The position numbers and the translations under genes were made by a program. Source: Fundidesulfovibrio magnetotacticus (GTDB lineage: Bacteria > Desulfobacterota > Desulfovibrionia > Desulfovibrionales > Desulfovibrionaceae). From it: a DNA stretch of 64,000 bases. Position 1 is the first letter of the stretch. Every line of letters starts with the position of its first letter. The stretch lies in contig NZ_BLTE01000007.1 of the NCBI RefSeq assembly GCF_013019105.1, positions 62,001 through 126,000 of the forward strand, given 5' to 3'. Shown here piece after piece: positions 48,309 to 63,096 of the stretch. Below the pieces are notes generated by a model, which was not told where the DNA came from, made no database searches, and worked only from the letters and a program-made list of their open reading frames with translations.

Positions 48309-48533
48309 ATGGGTTCAACGAAGAAGAATCTGGCGCGCATGAGGCGCAACCTCCAGGACTGGCGCATCGAAGACCTCCAGGCCATCGCCAGAGCGGAAGG
48401 GATCGAGTGGCGGCATAAAGGCACGAGCCATTGCATTTTCGTGCGCCGGGACGGAGCGACCTTGCCCGTTCCGGCCAAGCGGCCCATCAAGCCGGTCTAT
48501 ATCAAGCTTTTCCTGGAATTCCTCGGAGAATGA
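48309..48533 (+). CDS. hicA: HicA-like toxin (mRNA interferase)
   Basis: 74 aa from the ATG at 48309. It has the HicA double-stranded-RNA-binding fold features with the catalytic histidine in HKGTSHCIFVRRDG (His 41). It is longer than the commonest HicA (about 60 aa) because of an N-terminal Lys/Arg-rich segment. It overlaps the following hicB reading frame region closely, giving the usual toxin-antitoxin order. HicA cleaves mRNA and arrests translation when free of HicB. Confidence 0.85.
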   Translation: MGSTKKNLARMRRNLQDWRIEDLQAIARAEGIEWRHKGTSHCIFVRRDGATLPVPAKRPIKPVYIKLFLEFLGE

Positions 48534-48535
48534 CC

Positions 48536-48895
48536 ATGCACGACCTGAGCAAGTACCCCTTCGAAATCCGCACGCTCTCTCCCGAGGACGGCGGGGGCTT
48601 CCTCATCTCCTACCCCGATTTCAACGTCTGCGTGAGCGACGGGGCCACCATCGAGGAGGCCCTGGCCAACGGCCGCGAGGCCCTGGCCGAGACCATCGCC
48701 GCCCTGGAGGAAACCGGTCACCCCGTGCCGGAGCCGGGCTCCGGCCAGACGGCCTCGGGGCAGTTTCGCCAGCGCCTTCCCAAGAGCCTGCACGCCCGGC
48801 TGGTCTCGCAGGCCAAGAAGGAGGGCGTGTCCATGAACATGCTCGTGGCCACCTACATCGCCGAGGGCCTGGGCAAACGGGGACGGGCGCGCTAG
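48536..48895 (+). CDS. hicB: HicB-like antitoxin
   Basis: 119 aa from the ATG at 48536 (GGAG seven bases upstream); an ATG at 48530 overlapping the hicA stop is also possible. The N-terminal half has the HicB fold (YPDFNVCVSDGATIEEALANG) and the C-terminal half a ribbon-helix-helix or helical DNA-binding segment (LPKSLHARLVSQAKKEG). It would bind HicA and repress the operon. Confidence 0.88.
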   Translation: MHDLSKYPFEIRTLSPEDGGGFLISYPDFNVCVSDGATIEEALANGREALAETIAALEETGHPVPEPGSGQTASGQFRQRLPKSLHARLVSQAKKEGVSMNMLVATYIAEGLGKRGRAR

Positions 48896-48928: not shown

Positions 48929-48958
48929 TTGACACCCCCGCCGCCGGGCGGGTAGTCA
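48929..48958 (+). promoter_or_regulatory. Candidate promoter of the aromatic supraoperon
   Basis: A perfect TTGACA (48929-48934) is followed after 18 bases by TAGTCA (48953-48958). Transcription would start near 48965, so the leader peptide's second ATG (48967) would be almost at the 5' end. The -10 match is only partial. Confidence 0.5.
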
Positions 48959-49056
48959 TGCAGCCCATGCACTCCACCAACTTTACCGCTGGCTTCTTTT
49001 CCTGGTTTTATTTTTGGTTTAGCCGCGCCAGCGGTATCGGGAGTGGTGCACGGTAA
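48958..49056 (+). CDS. Aromatic leader peptide of the aro-phe-tyr-trp supraoperon
   Basis: 32 codons from the ATG at 48958, or 29 from the ATG at 48967, ending in TAA. Codons 13-21 (48994-49020) read Phe-Phe-Ser-Trp-Phe-Tyr-Phe-Trp-Phe: five Phe, two Trp and one Tyr in nine codons, plus one Phe earlier. Such a run is characteristic of a leader peptide that measures charging of aromatic tRNAs. The run lies in the loop of hairpin 1:2 of the attenuator. No strong Shine-Dalgarno sequence is seen (GGGCGGG only), and from the predicted promoter the ATG at 48967 would be nearly leaderless. Confidence 0.8.
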   Translation: MQPMHSTNFTAGFFSWFYFWFSRASGIGSGAR

Positions 49057-49121
49057 CGAAACGAATCGACCGGAAACCAAACCGAGGGCCGCTGGCATAA
49101 AGCCGGCGGCCCTCTTCGTTT
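48984..49121 (+). promoter_or_regulatory. Transcription attenuator with alternative hairpins
   Basis: Segment 1 (48984-48993, TACCGCTGGC) pairs perfectly with segment 2 (49027-49036, GCCAGCGGTA). Segment 2 can instead pair with segment 3 (CCGCTGGC, 49089-49096, an exact copy of the core of segment 1), with additional UCGG/CCGA pairs at 49037-49040 and 49082-49085. Segment 3 also forms the left arm of the terminator 49084-49096/49102-49114 (13 bp with one G-U pair, loop ATAAA), followed by TTCGTTT. A ribosome stalled on the Phe/Trp/Tyr codons would cover segment 1, free segment 2 for segment 3 and prevent termination. Confidence 0.85.
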
Positions 49122-49169: not shown

Positions 49170-49967
49170 ATGCTCATCGGAAAAGCCGTACGCCTGGAAC
49201 GCATCTTCAACCGCAACAACAACCGCACCATCGTCGTCCCCATGGACCACGGCGTCACCGTTGGCCCCATCGACGGACTCATCGACATGCGCGAGACCAT
49301 CAACCAGGTGGCCGAGGGCGGCGCCAACGCCGTGCTCATGCACAAAGGCCTCGTGCGCTGCTCCCACCGCAAGCGCGGCCGCGACGTGGGCCTGATCATC
49401 CACCTCTCCGCCTCCACCACCATCTCGCCCTTCCCCAACGCCAAGACCCTCGTGGCCACCGTCGAGGACGCCCTCAAGCTCGGCGCGGACGGCGTCTCCC
49501 TGCACATCAACCTGGGCGACGAGACCGAACGCCACATGCTCGAAGACTTCGGACACGCCACCTCCAAGGCCACCGAATGGGGCATGCCCGTGCTGGCCAT
49601 GGTCTACGCGCGCGGCCCCAAGGTGAAGAACGAGTACGACCCCGCCACCGTGGCCCACTGCGCCCGCGTGGGCATGGAACTGGGCGCGGACGTGGTGAAG
49701 GTGCCCTACACCGGAGACGTGGAAACCTTCGCCAAGGTCTGCGAGTCCTGCTGCATCCCCGTGGTCATCGCGGGCGGCCCCAAGCTCTCCGACGTGCGCG
49801 ACCTGGTGACCATGGCCCACGACTCCGTACAGGCGGGCGGCTCGGGCCTCTCCATCGGGCGCAACATCTTCCAGTACGCCCAGCCCTCCCGGCTGGTGCA
49901 GGCCCTGCACGGCGTGGTGCACCTCAACTGGGAGGTGGAACAGGCCATGGAACTCCTCAAGGACTAG
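49170..49967 (+). CDS. 2-amino-3,7-dideoxy-D-threo-hept-6-ulosonate (ADTH) synthase
   Basis: 265 aa. It is a class I aldolase-like protein with [13 protein letters not shown] near the N-terminus and the Schiff-base Lys in [11 protein letters not shown]. It is directly followed by DHQ synthase II and aromatic genes, which points to ADTH synthase (also called AroA'), the first step of the archaeal-type route from aspartate semialdehyde and a deoxy-ketosugar phosphate to dehydroquinate. It is the first structural gene after the attenuator. A bacterial fructose-bisphosphate aldolase role is less likely in this setting. Confidence 0.9.
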
Positions 49968-49977
49968 GCGGGACATC

Positions 49978-50949
49978 GTGAAACAGGTCTGGTTCAAAGC
50001 CATCCCCTTCGAGAAGAAGCTCGTCACCCTGGCCCTGGAGTCGGGCGTGGACGCCGTGCTCGCCGAACCCCAACACGCCGACGCCGTGCGCGCCCTGGGC
50101 CGCGTGGAGGTCTTCACCCCCGAGGAGGCCGCCTTCGTGGCCCTGGCCTCCAAAGCCGACGAGCAGACCGCCGTGGACGCCCTCAGGGACGGACGCAAAA
50201 CCGTGCTCACCCTGGGCTGGGAGATCATCCCCGTGGAGAACATCCTGGCCCAGGCCAAGGGCCTGGCCGTGGAAGTGGACGGGCTCGACCGCGCGCTCCT
50301 GGCGGCGGGCATCCTGGAGCGCGGCGTGGACGCCGTGCTGGTGCTCCCCGAGGCCGCGGGCGACCTCAAGCGTATCGTGGCCGGCGTGAAGCTCTCCCAG
50401 GGGGCCATGCCCCTGGAGACGGCCGTGGTCACGTCCATCAAGGCCGCCGGGCTGGGCCACCGCGTCTGCGTGGACACCATGAGCGTGCTCAAGAAGGGCC
50501 AGGGCATGCTTGTGGGCAATTCGAGCGCCTTCACCTTCCTGGTGCACGCCGAGACCGAATCCAACCCCTACGTGGCAGCGCGCCCCTTCCGGGTGAACGC
50601 CGGGGCCGTGCACGCCTACGCCGTGATGCCCGGCGACCGCACCACCTATCTCGAAGAGCTGGCCTCGGGCGACGAGGTGCTCATCGTCTCGGCCTCTGGC
50701 GAAACGAGCTTGGCCACCATCGGCCGCACCAAGGTGGAGGTGCGCCCCATGCTGCTGGTGACGGCCAGAACCGCCGAGCGCGAGGGCGCGGTGTTCCTCC
50801 AGAACGCCGAGACCATCCGCCTCACGCGGCCCGGCGGCGAGCCCGTGAGCGTGGTGGCCCTCAAGCCCGGCGACGAAATCCTCGTGCGCTCCGACCAGGC
50901 CGGACGCCACTTCGGCATGCGCATCGCCGAAGAGATCAAGGAAGGCTAG
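49978..50949 (+). CDS. 3-dehydroquinate synthase II
   Basis: 323 aa, GTG start 10 bases after the previous stop. It belongs to the DHQ synthase II family (AroB'), with ITTYLEELASGDEVL-type C-terminal segments, RPFRVNAGAVHAYAVMPG and KPGDEILVRSD. It oxidatively deaminates ADTH to 3-dehydroquinate with NAD, replacing the usual AroB. The pair means this organism enters the shikimate pathway without DAHP. It is unrelated to classical AroB. Confidence 0.93.
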   Translation: MKQVWFKAIPFEKKLVTLALESGVDAVLAEPQHADAVRALGRVEVFTPEEAAFVALASKADEQTAVDALRDGRKTVLTLGWEIIPVENILAQAKGLAVEVDGLDRALLAAGILERGVDAVLVLPEAAGDLKRIVAGVKLSQGAMPLETAVVTSIKAAGLGHRVCVDTMSVLKKGQGMLVGNSSAFTFLVHAETESNPYVAARPFRVNAGAVHAYAVMPGDRTTYLEELASGDEVLIVSASGETSLATIGRTKVEVRPMLLVTARTAEREGAVFLQNAETIRLTRPGGEPVSVVALKPGDEILVRSDQAGRHFGMRIAEEIKEG

Positions 50950-50951
50950 GC

Positions 50952-52088
50952 ATGACCTCCAACACCGACGACCCCGCGCGCGACGAACCCCTCGTCGCCG
51001 TGCGCGACGCCATCGACCAGGTGGACCAGGACCTCCTGGCCCTGCTCAACCGCCGCGCCGCCCTCTCCCTGGAGGTGGGACGCCTCAAGGCCGGCAGCGA
51101 CGAGCCCGTGTTCAAGCCCTTCCGCGAGAAGGAGGTGCTCGAAAAGCTCGCCCGGGAGAACCCCGGCCCCCTGCCCGACGAGCACCTGCGCTCCATCTAC
51201 CGCGAGATCATGTCCAGCTCGCGCAGGCTCCAGCGCACCCAGAAGGTGGCCTACCTTGGCCCCGAGGGCACGTTCTCCTACTTCGCCGCCGTGAGCTACC
51301 TGGGCCGCTCCTCCGAGTTCACCCCCCAGCCCGGCATCCCCGAGGTGTTCGAGGCCGTGCACCTGCGCGACGCCGAACTGGGAGTGATCCCCCTGGAGAA
51401 CTCCCTGCAGGGCACCGTGGGCCAGAGCCTGGACCTCTTTTTGCGCCACGAGGTGTTCATCCAGTCCGAGCTCTACTGCAAGATCAGCCACGCACTGCTC
51501 TCCAAGGGGTCGGACCTTTCGCGCATCGAGGAGATCTACTCCCATCCCCAGCCCTTGGCCCAGTGCGGCGGCTGGCTCAAGGCCCACCTGCCCATGGCCC
51601 GGATCATCCCGGCCGAGTCCACGGCCGCCGCCGCCCGGCGCGTGCTCTACAACCCCAAGGCCGCCGCCGTGGGCCACGTGAAGCTCTCCGAGATGCTGGG
51701 CCTGAACGTGCTGGCCAGCCGCATCGAGGACCTGCCCGACAACTGGACCCGCTTCCTGGTGATCGGCCCCGCCGAGACCAAGACCGGCAACCGCGACAAG
51801 ACCTCCATCCTTTTCACCCTGCCCGACAAGCCGGGCAGCCTCTCCGCCGTGCTCAACCGCCTGGCCGTGGAGGGGATCAACCTGACCAAGCTCGAATCGC
51901 GCCCGCTGCGCGGCGAAAAGTGGAAATACGTCTTCTTCGCGGACCTCCAGTGCGACCTGGGCCGCGACGAGTTCAAGACCATGCTGGAGCAGCTGCGCCA
52001 GGAGCTCAACTCCCTGCGCATCCTGGGCAGCTACCCCACGGGGCCGCACCTGGACGTCTCCGGGTCCGCCGTGCTGGAACGGGCCTGA
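50952..52088 (+). CDS. pheA: Bifunctional chorismate mutase / prephenate dehydratase
   Basis: 378 aa. An N-terminal AroQ-type chorismate mutase (about 12-95, with DQVDQDLLALLNRRAALS), a prephenate dehydratase domain (about 98-280, VAYLGPEGTFSYFAA) and an ACT domain (about 285-365) with the Phe-binding ESRP motif. It makes phenylpyruvate from chorismate; the intact ACT domain implies feedback inhibition by phenylalanine in addition to attenuation. Starts 2 bases after the upstream stop. Confidence 0.96.
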   Translation: MTSNTDDPARDEPLVAVRDAIDQVDQDLLALLNRRAALSLEVGRLKAGSDEPVFKPFREKEVLEKLARENPGPLPDEHLRSIYREIMSSSRRLQRTQKVAYLGPEGTFSYFAAVSYLGRSSEFTPQPGIPEVFEAVHLRDAELGVIPLENSLQGTVGQSLDLFLRHEVFIQSELYCKISHALLSKGSDLSRIEEIYSHPQPLAQCGGWLKAHLPMARIIPAESTAAAARRVLYNPKAAAVGHVKLSEMLGLNVLASRIEDLPDNWTRFLVIGPAETKTGNRDKTSILFTLPDKPGSLSAVLNRLAVEGINLTKLESRPLRGEKWKYVFFADLQCDLGRDEFKTMLEQLRQELNSLRILGSYPTGPHLDVSGSAVLERA

Positions 52089-52109: not shown

Positions 52110-53423
52110 GTGAACGCCCCCATCGACATCAAGGCCCCGGCCTCCAAGTCCGTCTCGCACCGCGCCTTCATCTGCGCGGCGCTGGCGGAGGGGACCTCCC
52201 TGGTCACCGACGCCCTGGAGTCCGACGACCTCATCCGCACCCGGCGCTGCCTCACGGCCGCCGGGGCCGTCTTCCGCAACACCGAGCGCGGCTGGGAGAT
52301 CACCGGCACGGCAGGCCGACCCTCCGGCGGCATGAAGCACCCCGCCGACTGCGACGTGGGCGAATCCGGCACCACCTGCCGCCTGCTCACCGCCGTGCTG
52401 GCCGCCGGACGCGGGCTCTTCCGCATCCACGGCGAGGGCCGCATGCACGAACGCCCCATCGGCCAGCTGGTCAGCGCCCTGGAACACCTGGGGCCGGTGT
52501 TCGAGTGGGAGGGCAAGCCCGGCTTCCCCCCCTTCGTCATCCGCACCGAGGGCCTCTGCGGCGACCACGCCGACGTGAGCCTGGAGGAATCGAGCCAGTA
52601 CCTCTCGGGCCTCCTGCTGGCCGCGCCCATGGCCCTGCGCCCCATCGTCGTGGGGGTGGGCGGGGCCAAGGTGGTCTCCTGGCCCTACGTGTCGCTCACG
52701 CTCATGGCCATGGCCGACTTCGGCGCGGCCCTGGACGTGGAACTGCTCCAGGACGGGGCCTGGGTCCCCACGCCCTTTACCGAGGTGCGCGAGGTGGTCC
52801 CCGGCGGCATCCGCTTCCGCGCGCGGCCCACGCCCTACCGCGCCCGCTCCTACACCGTGGAGGGCGACTGGTCCAACGCCTCCTACTTCCTGGCCGCCGG
52901 GGCCGCCGGGCCAAGGCCCGTGCGCGTCACCGGTCTGCGGCGCGACTCCCTCCAGGGCGACCGCGCCATCCTGGACATCCTCCAGGCCATGGGCGCGAAC
53001 GTGGAGTGGGACGACGCGGGCGTCACCGTTTCCGGCCAGGGCCTGCGCGGCGTGGAGGTGGACATGGGCCACTGCCCGGACCTGGTGCCCACGGTCTGCG
53101 CCGTGGCCGCCCAGGCGCAAGGCCCCACCACCATCCGCAACGTGGCCCACCTGCGCATCAAGGAGTCCGACCGCCTGGAGGCCTGCGCCGCCGAGATCGC
53201 CCGCGCGGGCGGCGTCACCGCCACCTTCGCGGACGGGCTAACCGTCACGCCCGCGCCCCTGGAGAAGGAGCGCCCCGTCACCTTCTCCACCTACGGCGAC
53301 CACCGCATGGCCATGAGCCTCTCGCTCCTGGAACTGGCGGGGGTGGACGTGCGCCTGGACAAGCCCGCCTGCGTGGCCAAGAGCTTCCCCGGCTTCTGGG
53401 ACCAGTGGAGGCTCGTGCGGTGA
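52110..53423 (+). CDS. aroA: 3-phosphoshikimate 1-carboxyvinyltransferase (EPSP synthase)
   Basis: 437 aa, GTG start with GAGGAG. It has KSVSHRAFICAALAEG with the substrate-binding Lys and Arg, the GESGTTCRLL motif and the later HLRIKESDRLEA and FSTYGDHRMAM. It joins shikimate-3-phosphate and PEP in the sixth step to chorismate. The downstream tyrA start overlaps its stop (GTGA). Confidence 0.97.
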   Translation: MNAPIDIKAPASKSVSHRAFICAALAEGTSLVTDALESDDLIRTRRCLTAAGAVFRNTERGWEITGTAGRPSGGMKHPADCDVGESGTTCRLLTAVLAAGRGLFRIHGEGRMHERPIGQLVSALEHLGPVFEWEGKPGFPPFVIRTEGLCGDHADVSLEESSQYLSGLLLAAPMALRPIVVGVGGAKVVSWPYVSLTLMAMADFGAALDVELLQDGAWVPTPFTEVREVVPGGIRFRARPTPYRARSYTVEGDWSNASYFLAAGAAGPRPVRVTGLRRDSLQGDRAILDILQAMGANVEWDDAGVTVSGQGLRGVEVDMGHCPDLVPTVCAVAAQAQGPTTIRNVAHLRIKESDRLEACAAEIARAGGVTATFADGLTVTPAPLEKERPVTFSTYGDHRMAMSLSLLELAGVDVRLDKPACVAKSFPGFWDQWRLVR

Positions 53424-54355
53424 GCAAGCCTTCCGCCATCGCCACCCTTGCCGTGGTGGGCGCTTCCGGCAAGATGGGCCGCCTCTTCACGGCGCGCTGC
53501 CGCCGCGAGGGCCTGGCCTGCTTCGAGCTGGACGCCCCCCTGGACATGGACCAGGCCGCGCGCGCCCTCCCCAGGGCCGACCTGGTGCTCCTGTGCGTGC
53601 CCGCCCAGGCCGTCACGGAGGCGCTGCGCGCCCTGGCCCCGCTGATCCCCAAGGGATGCGCGGTGGCGGACATCTGCTCGGTGAAGGTGAGGCCCCTCGA
53701 AGAAATGCTCGCCCTGCACCCGGGCCCCGTGGTGGGCACGCACCCGCTGTTCGGCCCCGTGCCGCCCGAGGGCGAGGCCCCCCGCGTGGCCGTGTGCCCG
53801 GGCCGGGGCGAGGCGGCCTGTCTCCAGGTGGAGGAGCTGCTCGCGCGCCTGGGTTTCGCCCCCTTCCGCACCACCGCCCACGAGCACGACCGGGCCATGG
53901 CCTACGTGCAGGGGCTCAACTTCGTCTCCACCGTGGCCTACCTGGCGGCCCAGAGCGCCCACGAGGGCTTCGAGCGTTTCCTGACGCCCTCCTTCACCCG
54001 CCGCCTGGAGGCCTCGCGCAAGCTCATCCTGGAAGACGCCGAACTCTTCCGTCTGATCTTCGAGGCCAACCCCCACAGCCTGGAGGCCGTGCGCAGCTTC
54101 CGCAACTACCTCAACGTGGCCGCGGGCGGCGACCTGGAGCTCCTGGTGGAGCGCGCCAGGTCCTGGTGGAGACAGCCCGCCCCCGCCCCAACCTGCAACC
54201 GCGACGACGAACCGGCCCCCAAACACGGGATGCCAAAGGGGCTCGCCCCTTCGGCCGCCGAAGGATTCTCCCGCGACAGCGCACCAGCGCCCGACAGAGC
54301 GGCCGGGGAGACTCCCCCGGCCCCCACACGCTCCAACAAGGACGACACGCCATGA
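53420..54355 (+). CDS. tyrA: Prephenate dehydrogenase with a low-complexity C-terminal tail
   Basis: 311 aa, GTG start overlapping aroA by 4 bases. N-terminal NAD-binding VVGASGKMGRLF, then GTHPLFGP with the prephenate-binding His. It converts prephenate to 4-hydroxyphenylpyruvate for tyrosine. From about residue 255 the sequence turns into a Pro/Ala/Asp-rich tail with no family match, encoded by palindrome-containing DNA (for example 54236-54251). The tail ends in an ATGA overlap with trpE, so translation coupling is kept. No ACT domain is seen. Confidence 0.9.
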   Translation: MSKPSAIATLAVVGASGKMGRLFTARCRREGLACFELDAPLDMDQAARALPRADLVLLCVPAQAVTEALRALAPLIPKGCAVADICSVKVRPLEEMLALHPGPVVGTHPLFGPVPPEGEAPRVAVCPGRGEAACLQVEELLARLGFAPFRTTAHEHDRAMAYVQGLNFVSTVAYLAAQSAHEGFERFLTPSFTRRLEASRKLILEDAELFRLIFEANPHSLEAVRSFRNYLNVAAGGDLELLVERARSWWRQPAPAPTCNRDDEPAPKHGMPKGLAPSAAEGFSRDSAPAPDRAAGETPPAPTRSNKDDTP

Positions 54356-55764
54356 TCGAGTTCATTCAGGAAGCCAAGTGGCTGCCCGCCGACGTGCAGA
54401 CGCCCATCAGCCTCTATCTGGGGCTGGTGGGGGACCGTCCGGGCATTCTGTTCGAGTCCGCCGAGGTGGACGGACGCCTGGGCCGTTATTCGATCCTGGC
54501 CTGGGATTTCCGCCTCTCGGCCAACTGCCAGGACGGCAATCTGGTGGTCACCACCCGCGACGACCGCCTGAAGCCCCTGGAAGAGCTCACCGGCCGCCCC
54601 TTCCTGGAGGGCGTGCGCGAGCTGATGAAGCGCATCCGCGTTTCGCCGCCCGAGGGCTTCGCGGACCTGCCCGCCATCACCCGGGGGCTCTACGGCTACT
54701 TCGGCTACGCCTCGGCCGCCCTCTTCGAGCCCAAGCTCTCCAAGGTGATCCCCGAAAAGGACATGGAGGTCACCCTGGTGCTGCCCGGGCACGTGGTGCT
54801 CTTCGACCACCTGCGCCACCGCTGCTGTCTGCTCTCCCTGGGCGGGGGCATGCGCCCCAAGCTGGACGCCTCGGCGGTGCTGCGCTCCTCCGAGAAGCCC
54901 GAGATGGGGGGCGTCTTGCACCATCCGGGCGAGCAGGCCTTCCTGGCCGGGGTGGAGAAGGCCAAGGAGCTGATCCGCCAGGGCGAGTGCATCCAGGTGG
55001 TGCTCTCCAACCGCTTCCACGCGCCCTTCTCAGGCGACCCCTTCGCGGTGTACCGCAGGCTGCGCCAGGTGAACCCCTCGCCCTACATGTTCTTCGTGCG
55101 CCTGCCGCGCATCACCCTGGTGGGCTCCTCGCCGGAGTTCCTGGTGCGCTGCGTGGACGGCGCGCTCACCACCGCGCCCATCGCGGGCACGCGCCCGCGC
55201 GGGGCCGACGAGGCCCAGGACGACCTCCTGGCCCAGGACCTGTTGGCCGACCCCAAGGAACGCGCCGAACACGTGATGCTGGTGGACCTGGGCCGAAACG
55301 ACCTGGGACGCATCGCCAAACCCGGCACCGTGCGGGTGGAGAAATTCATGCAGGTGGAGAAGTTCTCCCACGTGCTGCACCTGACCAGCTACGTGACGGC
55401 CAGGCTCAAGGACGGCCTGGACGCCCTGGACGTGATCGGCTCGGTGTTCCCCGCGGGCACGGTGTCGGGCGCGCCCAAGGTGCGCGCCATGGAGATCATC
55501 GCCGACACCGAGACCATCCCGCGCGGGCCCTACGCCGGGGCCATCGGCTGGCTGGGCCTGGACCCGGACCGCGTGGACCTGGACACGGGCATCCTCATCC
55601 GCACCATGTGGTTCCGCGACGGCATGGTGCACTGGCAGACGGGCGCGGGCCTGGTCTACGATTCGGACCCCGCGAAGGAATGGCAGGAGGTCCACAACAA
55701 GGCCCGCGTGCTGGCGGAAGTGCTGGCCGGGGAGGAGGAAGGCGATGTTTTTACTCATAGATAA
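54352..55764 (+). CDS. trpE: Anthranilate synthase component I
   Basis: 470 aa. The chorismate-binding domain is complete: TTAPIAGTRPRG, HVMLVDLGRNDLGRI, GTVSGAPKVRAMEIIA and GAGLVYDSDP. The N-terminal domain contains the tryptophan-binding region near LLES-type sequence (FESAEVDGRLGRYS), consistent with feedback control. It works with TrpG to make anthranilate. It overlaps tyrA by 4 bases and trpG by 20. Confidence 0.96.
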   Translation: MIEFIQEAKWLPADVQTPISLYLGLVGDRPGILFESAEVDGRLGRYSILAWDFRLSANCQDGNLVVTTRDDRLKPLEELTGRPFLEGVRELMKRIRVSPPEGFADLPAITRGLYGYFGYASAALFEPKLSKVIPEKDMEVTLVLPGHVVLFDHLRHRCCLLSLGGGMRPKLDASAVLRSSEKPEMGGVLHHPGEQAFLAGVEKAKELIRQGECIQVVLSNRFHAPFSGDPFAVYRRLRQVNPSPYMFFVRLPRITLVGSSPEFLVRCVDGALTTAPIAGTRPRGADEAQDDLLAQDLLADPKERAEHVMLVDLGRNDLGRIAKPGTVRVEKFMQVEKFSHVLHLTSYVTARLKDGLDALDVIGSVFPAGTVSGAPKVRAMEIIADTETIPRGPYAGAIGWLGLDPDRVDLDTGILIRTMWFRDGMVHWQTGAGLVYDSDPAKEWQEVHNKARVLAEVLAGEEEGDVFTHR

Positions 55765-56317: not shown

Positions 56318-56324
56318 GCGCGCC

Positions 56325-57059
56325 ATGCCCCTCCAGATCCGCCATCTCTCCCCGCAGGACGTGCTCGGCCACGAGACCACCCTGTGGAAGTATCTCTCCT
56401 TCGAGAAGTTTCTCGACTTTCTGCTGCTCAAGCGCCTCTACTTCCGGCGCTCCGACAAGCTCTCGGACCCCTTCGAGTGCCTTGTGCCGCCCGAGATGCG
56501 CTCCCCCTGCACGGCCATCGCCCTGCCCCCCGAGGAGTTGGACCTCCTGGCCGCCCACGAGCGCTACATCAACTCCGCCCGGCCCAAGGTGTTCCTCAAC
56601 TCCTGGCACATCAACGAGTACGAGTCCGAGGCCATGTGGAAGCTCTTCGGCGGCCAGGGCCACTCCATCGCCATCCGCACCACCTTCGGGCGCATGCTCG
56701 CCCAGCTGGCCGCCCATGACCTCACCGCCGGCAAGGTCCTCTACAAGGACATGATCAAGGACGACTGCCGCATCGCCGACCTCTTCGACTTCGCCCTGCT
56801 CAAGCGCAAACCCTTCGAGCACGAACGCGAATTCCGGCTGATCTACATCAACGAACAAGGCGACGAGAACCCGAGGCTCCTGGACGGCCTGGGCCTGCAC
56901 ATCCCCGTGGAGCCCGCCGCACTGATGGACGCCGTCTACGTCTCGCCCCTCTCCGAACCCTGGCAGTTCGAGCTGACACAGACCATCGTGACCGGCCAAG
57001 GCCTCTCCGACCGCCTGATCCGCTCGACGCTCTTCAACCTTCCGGGAACCCGGCGCTGA
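56325..57059 (+). CDS. DUF2971 protein inside the trp operon
   Basis: 244 aa. Recognised from the order LWKYLSFEKFLDFLL, FRRSDKLSDPFEC (about 41-53), LNSWHINEYESEAMWKLF and EHEREFRLIY, which fit the DUF2971 family of unknown function. It lies 7 bases after trpG and 32 before trpD, with no break in strand, so it is cotranscribed with tryptophan genes. DUF2971 proteins are often in accessory regions and near defence genes. It has no known link to tryptophan, and its presence here is unexplained. Confidence 0.8.
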   Translation: MPLQIRHLSPQDVLGHETTLWKYLSFEKFLDFLLLKRLYFRRSDKLSDPFECLVPPEMRSPCTAIALPPEELDLLAAHERYINSARPKVFLNSWHINEYESEAMWKLFGGQGHSIAIRTTFGRMLAQLAAHDLTAGKVLYKDMIKDDCRIADLFDFALLKRKPFEHEREFRLIYINEQGDENPRLLDGLGLHIPVEPAALMDAVYVSPLSEPWQFELTQTIVTGQGLSDRLIRSTLFNLPGTRR

Positions 57060-57091
57060 CGCCGCACGCCCCGCCAACAAGGAGCCCATCC

Positions 57092-59277: not shown

Positions 59278-59934
59278 GTGCTGGTGAAGGTCTGCGGCAT
59301 GACGCTGTCTGCCCAGGTGGCGGCGCTCGACTCTTTGGGCGTGGACTTCCTGGGCTTCATCTTCGCGGCCAAGAGTCCCCGCCGCGTCACGCCGGAGCAT
59401 GTGGCGTCGATTCCCCGTGGCCGGGCGAAGCGCGTTGGGGTGTTCGTGGAGCAGGACGCGGCGGAGGTGCGCCGGATCATGGACGCGGCGGGGCTGGACC
59501 TGGCGCAACTGCACGGCGGCCAGGACGAGCGGTTCTGCGAGGCCGTGGGACCGGACCGAGTGGTCCGGGTGTTCTGGCCCGAGCGTCACGCCCGGGCGCT
59601 GGCCGAGGCGGGTCTGGATGCCGACGCGGCGCGTGTGCGGGCGAGCCTGGAGGCCGAGATGGCGCGTTTCGCCGGGGCGTGCGCGCTGATGCTCCTGGAC
59701 GCGGGCACGTCGGGCGGCGGGCACGGGACATCGCTTGATTTCGCGGGGTTGGCGGGGCTTCACGCCCCGCGTCCCTGGCTCCTGGCCGGGGGGCTTTCCC
59801 CAGCCAACGCGGCCCGGGCCGTGCGGGAGGCTTCTCCCGCCGGGCTGGACCTCAACTCCGGCGTGGAGGACGCGCCGGGGGTGAAGAACCTGGACATGAC
59901 GAAGAAAACGCTCAATATAATTAAAAGTTTTTGA
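59278..59934 (+). CDS. trpF: Phosphoribosylanthranilate isomerase
   Basis: 218 aa, GTG start preceded by AGGAG eight bases away. KVCGMTLSAQV with the catalytic Cys, FAAKSPRRV, LAQLHGGQDE and a C-terminal DLNSGVEDAPGVKNLDM with the catalytic Asp region. It isomerises PRA to CdRP, feeding TrpC. It lies downstream of the spacer element, so its expression depends on read-through. Confidence 0.95.
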   Translation: MLVKVCGMTLSAQVAALDSLGVDFLGFIFAAKSPRRVTPEHVASIPRGRAKRVGVFVEQDAAEVRRIMDAAGLDLAQLHGGQDERFCEAVGPDRVVRVFWPERHARALAEAGLDADAARVRASLEAEMARFAGACALMLLDAGTSGGGHGTSLDFAGLAGLHAPRPWLLAGGLSPANAARAVREASPAGLDLNSGVEDAPGVKNLDMTKKTLNIIKSF

Positions 59935-59998: not shown

Positions 59999-61177
<1,179 letters not shown>

Positions 61178-62229: not shown

Positions 62230-63096
62230 ATGTGGATCGTGCTCATGCTCGTGGCGGCGCTGTGCCAGGCGTTGAAGGATCTCTACCTCAAGCGCAGCGT
62301 GAAGGGCGTGGAGCCGGTGGCGGTCACGTGGGCCTACTGCCTGGGCACCACGCTCTTTCTGACCGTGCCCGTGCTGGCCGAACCGATGCCCACGCTGCGG
62401 CCCGGATTCTGGACTGCCATCGGGGTGATGGGGCCGCTGGCGGCGCTGACGCTCTATCTCTACGTGAAGGCGCTGGAGTCCTCGGACCTGTCGCTGGCCG
62501 CGCCCATGCTCACGGCCACGCCGCTCTTTCTGCTGATCACCTCGCCGCTGATCCTGGGCGAGTTTCCGGACCCGGCGGGAATCGTGGGCATCGCGTGCAT
62601 CGTGGGGGGCTCCTACGTGCTGAACCTGGCCAAGGCCCGGCGGGGCAGCCCCCTGGAGCCCTTCCGGGCGCTGATGCGCGACAAGGGCGCGCGGCTGATG
62701 CTCCTGGTGGCGTTCTTGTGGTCGGTGTCGGCCAACATCGACAAGGTGGGGCTGCGCAACGCCTCGCCCATGTTCTGGATCCTGTGCGCGTTCGGGGTCA
62801 CCACGGCGTGGCTGACGCCCATGGTCTGGCGCCTGAGCAGCCGGGGCTTCGGCCAGGTGCGCGCCCGTCCCGCGGAGCTGGCGGCAGCGGGATTCCTTGA
62901 AGCCGTGACCTGCTGGTGCCAGATGCAGGCCCTGACCATGGCCATCGTGCCCTACGTGATCTCGGTGAAGCGCATGAGCGCGGTGTTCGCGGTGCTCCTG
63001 GGCTGGCTGGTGCTGCGCGAGGGCAACGTGCGCGAGCGGCTGGCTGGGGCGGCGCTCATGGTGGTGGGGGTTTTTCTCATCGCGTTTTTGGGGTAG
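62230..63096 (+). CDS. EamA/DMT-family transporter
   Basis: 288 aa with about 10 hydrophobic helices in two EamA repeats (residues about 1-135 and 155-288). It starts 12 bases after the trpA stop and is likely the last part of the supraoperon transcript. Family members export amino acids and other metabolites, so export of an aromatic product is possible; this rests on position only. Confidence 0.88.
   Translation: MWIVLMLVAALCQALKDLYLKRSVKGVEPVAVTWAYCLGTTLFLTVPVLAEPMPTLRPGFWTAIGVMGPLAALTLYLYVKALESSDLSLAAPMLTATPLFLLITSPLILGEFPDPAGIVGIACIVGGSYVLNLAKARRGSPLEPFRALMRDKGARLMLLVAFLWSVSANIDKVGLRNASPMFWILCAFGVTTAWLTPMVWRLSSRGFGQVRARPAELAAAGFLEAVTCWCQMQALTMAIVPYVISVKRMSAVFAVLLGWLVLREGNVRERLAGAALMVVGVFLIAFLG

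Follow-up and report, generated by a model that had tools for sequence, protein, structure and literature searches.

A putative transcription attenuator with codons for all three aromatic amino acids precedes the aromatic supraoperon of Fundidesulfovibrio magnetotacticus and its relatives

The aromatic supraoperon of Fundidesulfovibrio magnetotacticus is very probably controlled by a ribosome-mediated transcription attenuator that is tuned to phenylalanine, tyrosine and tryptophan. The leader stretch lies between a HicB-like gene and an operon of 12 genes in the window, the whole 64,000-nucleotide stretch of DNA that was analysed, and contains a short reading frame with a run of aromatic codons and RNA segments that can pair in alternative ways. 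Related leaders were found in other Desulfovibrionales, where their codons match the genes that they precede.

Results

Leader peptide and operon

The first-pass annotation described a mixed leader with Phe-Phe-Ser-Trp-Phe-Tyr-Phe-Trp-Phe in consecutive codons, and reading of the frame confirmed this run. The frame does not stop after the aromatic codons and continues through segment 2 of the RNA structure up to a TAA codon at 49054-49056. The elements of the leader are:

48967..49056, + strand: leader peptide ORF MHSTNFTAGFFSWFYFWFSRASGIGSGAR, followed by the stop codon (frame read; alternative start ATG 48958)
48984..48993, + strand: segment 1, pairing partner of segment 2 and chiefly a trait of the window's genus
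48994..49020, + strand: control codons FFSWFYFWF, conserved in kind among relatives
49027..49036, + strand: segment 2, inside the leader frame (codons A, S, G and the first base of I)
49084..49096 (core 49089..49096), + strand: segment 3, 5' arm of the terminator
49102..49121, + strand: segment 4 and T-rich tail TTCGTTT (terminator scan, alignment)

When all six frames of the whole 64 kb window were scanned for at least 8 aromatic codons in 10, this leader was the only place found, and runs of that density were absent from 10 first-order Markov copies of the window.

A supraoperon for all three aromatic amino acids had been proposed to follow the leader, and the gene content bears this out, with 12 genes running from the first aromatic step to trpA in the following order:

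49170..49967, + strand: 2-amino-3,7-dideoxy-D-threo-hept-6-ulosonate synthase (ADH synthase, first step; aroA' of PMC1173090), TIGR01949 395 bits, above cut-off
49978..50949, + strand: 3-dehydroquinate synthase II (aroB' of PMC1173090), NF002628 550 bits, above cut-off
50952..52088, + strand: chorismate mutase/prephenate dehydratase, pheA, NF008865 above cut-off
52110..53423, + strand: EPSP synthase, aroA, TIGR01356 above cut-off
53420..54355, + strand: tyrA-like prephenate dehydrogenase, PF02153 above gathering score, proposed start GTG 53420
54352..55764, + strand: trpE, PF00425 and PF04715
55745..56317, + strand: trpG, TIGR00566
57092..58090, + strand: trpD, TIGR01245
58083..58853, + strand: trpC, NF001377 205 bits, below the equivalog cut-off of 260
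59278..59934, + strand: trpF, NF002298 145 bits, below the cut-off of 215
59999..61177, + strand: trpB, TIGR00263
61438..62217, + strand: trpA, TIGR00262

The tyrA-like frame is open up to the TGA at 54353-54355, and a tyrA-like match was present in 40 of the 40 loci that carry aroA and trpE on the same strand. The gap of 774 bases between trpG and trpD (56318-57091) contains ORFs on both strands, none with a family match (best family DUF2971, E 0.08); the corresponding gap measures 819 bases in L031, from the same genus, 440 in L079 and 19-102 in six other loci compared. Directly 3' of trpA lies an EamA-type transporter gene (62230-63096), possibly encoding an aromatic exporter within the same operon.

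Alternative pairing in the leader RNA

The pairings 1:2, 2:3 and 3:4 with a T-tail, as described in the annotation, were all recovered. Positions 48984-48993 (TACCGCTGGC) are the exact reverse complement of 49027-49036 (GCCAGCGGTA), and 49089-49096 (CCGCTGGC) is the same as the core of segment 1 and complementary to segment 2. An intrinsic terminator-like element is present between the leader ORF and the first gene, where 49084-49114 forms a terminator-like stem of 13 pairs followed by TTCGTTT. By itself, the terminator scan is weak evidence in this GC-rich stretch, with one terminator found versus 0.6 expected in shuffles. The antiterminator shares segment 3 with the terminator. Membership of an Rfam family was rejected, as the Rfam covariance models (T-box, riboswitches and others) gave no match at the gathering threshold and two matches far below it.

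Conservation among relatives

Loci for comparison came from two sources. A search for ADH-synthase loci in 59 genomes, including that of the window, gave a match in 56 and returned 30 loci, and an alignment of dehydroquinate synthase II supplied 80 named loci, the best 80 of 158 relatives. The latter mostly belong to Desulfovibrionales families; some are named just Proteobacteria or Deltaproteobacteria, one is from Desulfobacterales and one from Candidatus Sumerlaeota, the last without an adjacent ADH-synthase gene. Gene order was preserved in most loci, as far as each reaches. After dropping L102, L105 and L109, with no usable ADH-synthase gene, and L073 and L092, with too little upstream sequence, an aromatic leader was found to precede the operon in 75 of 75 named loci, all with the ADH-synthase gene adjoining that for dehydroquinate synthase II. 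The weakest of these leaders is that of L061 (FAYGYY), and the Nitratidesulfovibrio-type leader (L074, L078), from a genus near D. vulgaris, sits further upstream of the operon. Wherever trpE lies downstream in the same locus, the leader has at least one Phe, one Tyr and one Trp codon (39/39), and the codon conservation that had been suggested as a check is thus complete for loci with trpE in cis.

An RNA model, R1, was built from 58 leaders. It matched 39 of 39 genomes, comprising the window's own and relatives, at E<=0.01, and 230 of 247 genomes of the order at E<=1e-4, with no match at that threshold in the other 17. In a phylum sample of 198 genomes, R1 matched the 7 from the window's family and 7 among the 191 others. 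Six genomes with matches outside the order were inspected. In G372 a WW ORF precedes trpE, in G452 an F/Y leader precedes ADH synthase, and G413 has a doubtful leader upstream of a gene that looks unrelated. No aromatic leader was seen at the matches in G292, G313 (at 3.5e-14 the strongest) and G416, which resemble hits to a terminator.

Covariation

The segment-3 pattern CCGCNGG was present in 106 leaders, of which 70 were kept after removing near-copies, and 58 were aligned. L054, L058, L110 and one false ORF in L018 were left out for lacking the pattern, and the 58-row alignment further omits the Phe-type leaders L020 and L027, as well as L061, L085, L094 and seven Mailhella-group leaders. 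In the consensus, segment 2 reads mostly GCC-N-G-Y-GG and segment 3 CCGC-N-GGC, and 97.2% of the 2:3 cells are paired. The two N positions form column pair 27:108, which is UA in 31 rows, CG in 17, UG in 5 and AU in 4, and is therefore paired in all 57 rows with letters on both sides. The segment-3 base of this pair makes no standard pair with segment 4 in 49 of the 58 rows. Segment 3 thus tracks segment 2, even at the cost of a terminator mismatch. This is the one pair of 2:3 with changes on both sides, the remaining pairs varying one-sidedly or not at all; the pattern used for choosing rows left the N position free. In L110, which was left out as it lacks the pattern, CCTGTGG stands against CCACAGG. 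For 3:4, both-sided changes occurred in 6 of the 12 pairs.

Pairing was also compared with 200 dinucleotide shuffles per leader in the 70 leaders. At p<=0.05, 2:3 exceeded the shuffles in 63/70, the antiterminator extension in 29/70 and 1:2 in 9/70. A test for compensatory changes had been suggested for all three pairings, and such changes were seen in 2:3 and 3:4. The protector hairpin 1:2 has no mismatch in the window and is strong across its genus. Segment 1 is thus real in the window and its genus and is not general; a generally conserved segment 1 is not supported by the shuffle counts. For the respelled leaders described below, a cruder test with a long downstream target rarely placed 2:3 above shuffles and was uninformative. 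Neither a lack of covariation nor a lack of codon conservation, both among the outcomes named beforehand as refuting, was found in the relatives' leaders, and the conserved codons together with covarying 2:3 and 3:4 support the reading as a pan-aromatic attenuator.

These data bear on two other explanations. A coincidence, or an ordinary terminator behind a meaningless ORF, would agree with a terminator scan that is near chance in a GC-rich stretch, but has next to no probability given leaders at 75 of 75 loci, the covariation and the failure of 10 Markov copies to produce such an aromatic run. A TnaC-like arrest, in which the nascent aromatic peptide would bind an aromatic amino acid in the ribosome and stall, is very unlikely. 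The nascent chain is rich in aromatic residues and its tail is conserved (R-A-C-G-like), but conservation of the tail follows from segment 2 and its covariation with segment 3, and the aromatic residues differ freely in which they are, how many there are and how they are arranged, up to FFFFFFF, YYYSY and WWW. Conserved arrest-site residues as in TnaC-type peptides were not found in the leaders compared.

Putative promoter and start of the leader

A HicB-like gene (48431-48895; PF05534, PF15919) ends just upstream of the leader promoter, for which two elements are proposed:

48929..48934, + strand: putative -35 box TTGACA, exact match, common upstream of relatives' leaders
48953..48958, + strand: putative -10 box TAGTCA, placed by its spacing to TTGACA, weak match to TATAAT, register uncertain

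An exact TTGACA was present upstream of 89 of 96 distinct leaders, compared to 4.4% of dinucleotide-shuffled stretches, and the -10 boxes are poor or weak across leaders. In the window, the uncertainty of the -10 register is reflected by the script choosing GGTAGT, two bases upstream of TAGTCA, and no promoter emerged from a strict sigma-70 scan of the window stretch. Of the two ATGs, 48967 is more likely to be the start codon, because the first one, at 48958, overlaps the putative -10 box. The two lie 10 and 1 nt, respectively, after the script-picked -10 register, and 48967 lies 8 nt after TAGTCA. Of the 95 leaders whose -35 box has at least 5 matches, 63 have their nearest in-frame ATG 5-12 nt after the chosen -10, most commonly 8 nt after it. 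This promoter spacing suggests that the leader AUG is probably at or near the first transcribed base.

The S. meliloti trpL transcript begins with the AUG of the leader peptide, according to the available part of PMC7298713; that leader reads Trp only, and its 5' end was reported, whereas the one proposed here follows from spacing. A short RNA starting at or near the AUG, as in that organism (PMC7298713, available text), would also suit a terminated RNA or peptide that is the main product and acts in trans, like peTrpL and rnTrpL of Sinorhizobium meliloti, with attenuation being secondary. We consider this highly improbable, as the peptide is conserved in codon kind only and the conserved bases are explained by 2:3:4 pairing. 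The last aromatic codon starts 8 nt before segment 2 in 43 of 70 leaders, and the stop codon lies 8-25 nt past segment 2 (median 13 over 70 leaders; 17 nt in the window).

Leader codons and downstream genes

Mailhella-type loci have their trp genes on the opposite strand, and in 6 of 6 the aro-pheA leader has Phe and Tyr codons and no Trp codon. The trp operon of these loci has a leader of its own, with WWW in 4/6 and a single W in L087, which was read by eye, and L106. Of 18 further genomes searched for trpE, 16 were positive, each on a locus apart from the aro operon, and every one of these detached trpE genes had a WW or WWW leader (16/16), compared to a WW short ORF in 11 of 320 shuffled upstream stretches. 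The aro leaders of G059 and G060, where trpE was not found, are without W. The correspondence is imperfect, as W is retained in 12 of 22 split or trpE-less loci; L047 also keeps it, even though the trpE of its genome, G011, lies on a different contig, where it follows a GLWWR leader. A plain Fisher test on the presence of W (39/39 versus 12/21) gave p about 2e-5 for rows that are related, the W label of L092 having been set by hand from a partial leader. As a phylogenetically independent test, W loss against trp split amounts to 2-3 independent pairs, with which significance is unreachable.

ADH-synthase copies outside the supraoperon had aromatic leaders in 13 of 24 cases (7 Tyr-rich, 4 Phe-rich and 2 Phe/Tyr, judged by eye), and no such leader was seen at the other 11. 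A second ADH-synthase gene with a Tyr-rich leader is found in L111, which is in the window's own genome (G000:C6), and in L112-L117, of which L117 is from a genome of the same family and the rest are from five further genomes of the same genus. In all seven a terminator-like hairpin precedes the gene. The leader in the window's own genome is weak (AYYCYG).

R1 also matched in front of transporter genes. Before SSS sodium symporters the leaders are of the Phe type in 8 of 9, the ninth being Phe/Tyr, and before TRAP transporters they are of the Trp type in 4 of 4; in each family one member was placed by family assignment and the rest by similarity of 56-90%. The SSS symporters behind Phe-run leaders (L200, L201, L204, L227, L230, L231, L234, L238) are candidate phenylalanine importers, and the DctP-type TRAP transporters behind WW or WWW leaders (L203, L205, L208, L209) are candidate tryptophan importers, as judged from the leader codons. 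One further R1 match precedes a free-standing pheA-like gene (L216).

The ratio of TTT to TTC for phenylalanine was 5:1 in the window leader and 303:74 over 97 leaders, versus 5:133 in the operon genes of the window. This preference may raise sensitivity or keep the stretch unpaired; synonymous codon choice has been argued to matter for attenuator sensitivity (PMC1183508, available text). The abundance in leaders of a codon that is rare in the operon genes is also what would be expected if the attenuator senses one dominant amino acid, phenylalanine, or general translation speed, with the other aromatic residues being passengers. The run in the window has more Phe than Tyr or Trp, and leaders without W exist, which point the same way. 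However, all 39 leaders with trp genes in cis retain F, Y and W, even though Trp, with its one codon, is easy to lose, and detached trp operons have Trp leaders while other gene copies have Tyr-rich ones. We therefore regard sensing of a single amino acid as unlikely, and a response to all three as the better reading of the leader.

Discussion

From the sequence we infer how such an attenuator could work, from the 5' end of its transcript through ribosome stalling and termination to its response to the individual amino acids. The transcript would start at or close to the leader AUG. A shortage of charged tRNA-Phe, -Tyr or -Trp would stall the ribosome in FFSWFYFWF just before segment 2, leaving segment 2 free to pair with segment 3, so that the polymerase can enter the 12-gene operon. 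With all three amino acids plentiful, the ribosome would pass segment 2 and reach the stop codon, covering segment 2 or the 3' extension of it and leaving segment 3 to form the 3:4 terminator. Based on the size of the ribosome footprint, a ribosome waiting in the run would leave segment 2 free, except at the last one or two codons, and a ribosome at the stop codon would cover the end of segment 2 or its extension. Because the leader frame runs through segment 2, it is probably the ribosome itself that masks this segment. In the window's genus, segment 1 could also sequester segment 2. In most other leaders 1:2 is no better than chance, and leader translation itself would therefore permit termination.

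Ribosome-mediated attenuation, leaders for three amino acids (ilvGMEDA) and a predicted attenuator in D. vulgaris are known already, and what sets this case apart is which amino acids are represented, that leaders are respelled across the order, that segment 1 is not general and that the transcript probably starts at the AUG. The first-pass annotation held that attenuators sense one amino acid or two, which proved too narrow, as the E. coli ilvGMEDA leader is multivalent and reads three. In that system (ilvL), as here, one leader has codons for all end products, and antiterminator and terminator are mutually exclusive, but the amino acids are branched-chain and not aromatic, and the likeness is one of description, not of sequence. 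Segment 1:2 is part of the textbook attenuator design, and such a hairpin is present in the ilvGMEDA leader, as is an untranslated 5' stretch. E. coli trpL and pheL each read one amino acid. They share with the leader studied here a cognate codon run, segments 2:3 and 3:4 and an intrinsic terminator, whereas here all three aromatic amino acids are represented, 1:2 is mainly genus-wide and the frame runs through segment 2. The naming of ilvGMEDA as an attenuated operon is found in the available part of PMC1183508.

The first-pass annotation knew of no description of a pan-aromatic attenuator in a sulfate reducer. For D. vulgaris aroA'>aroB'>aroQ-pheA>aroF>tyrA>[trp operon], which has the same gene order as the window's operon in a relative, a putative attenuator was listed in 2005 as a computer prediction from the Merino database (Song et al. 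2005, Table 7, PMC1173090). The available text of that paper does not contain the term leader peptide and gives no codon content or conservation. In the open literature, subscription literature being outside the scope of the search, no recognisable description of a Phe-Tyr-Trp leader was found; by term search, the words aromatic and tryptophan are absent from PMC545781, and Desulfo- and aromatic from PMC2965389.

The findings widen multivalent attenuation to the full set of aromatic amino acids and to an order of sulfate reducers, and they supply a natural series of leaders whose codons have changed in step with the genes regulated. The missing general segment 1 and the probable AUG start make for a switch that is simpler than the textbook one. 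Whether the Desulfovibrionales have a single family of near-leaderless three-segment attenuators, whose codons were respelled for each gene served, seems to us evenly balanced. If so, the family would comprise pan-aromatic leaders for the supraoperon, Tyr- or Phe-rich leaders for copies of the first enzyme, Trp leaders for detached trp operons and TRAP transporters, and Phe leaders for SSS symporters. The spelling of a leader would then predict the substrate of the transporter behind it, which provides testable predictions for unassigned SSS and TRAP proteins. Moreover, because a general segment 1 is lacking, an untranslated leader would leave the switch ON by default in most of the order, which is the opposite of E. 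coli trp.

In E. coli, feedback-specific isozymes perform the job that would fall here to the Tyr- and Phe-rich leaders of the first-enzyme copies. Two further arrangements were seen among the relatives. In L162, a tandem pair of WWW leaders precedes one trpE, and in L089, L091, L097 and L100 a solo ADH-synthase gene separates the divergent trp and aro operons and the leaders are mixed (GCWCYAYY, for example); Cys codons recur in three of the four.
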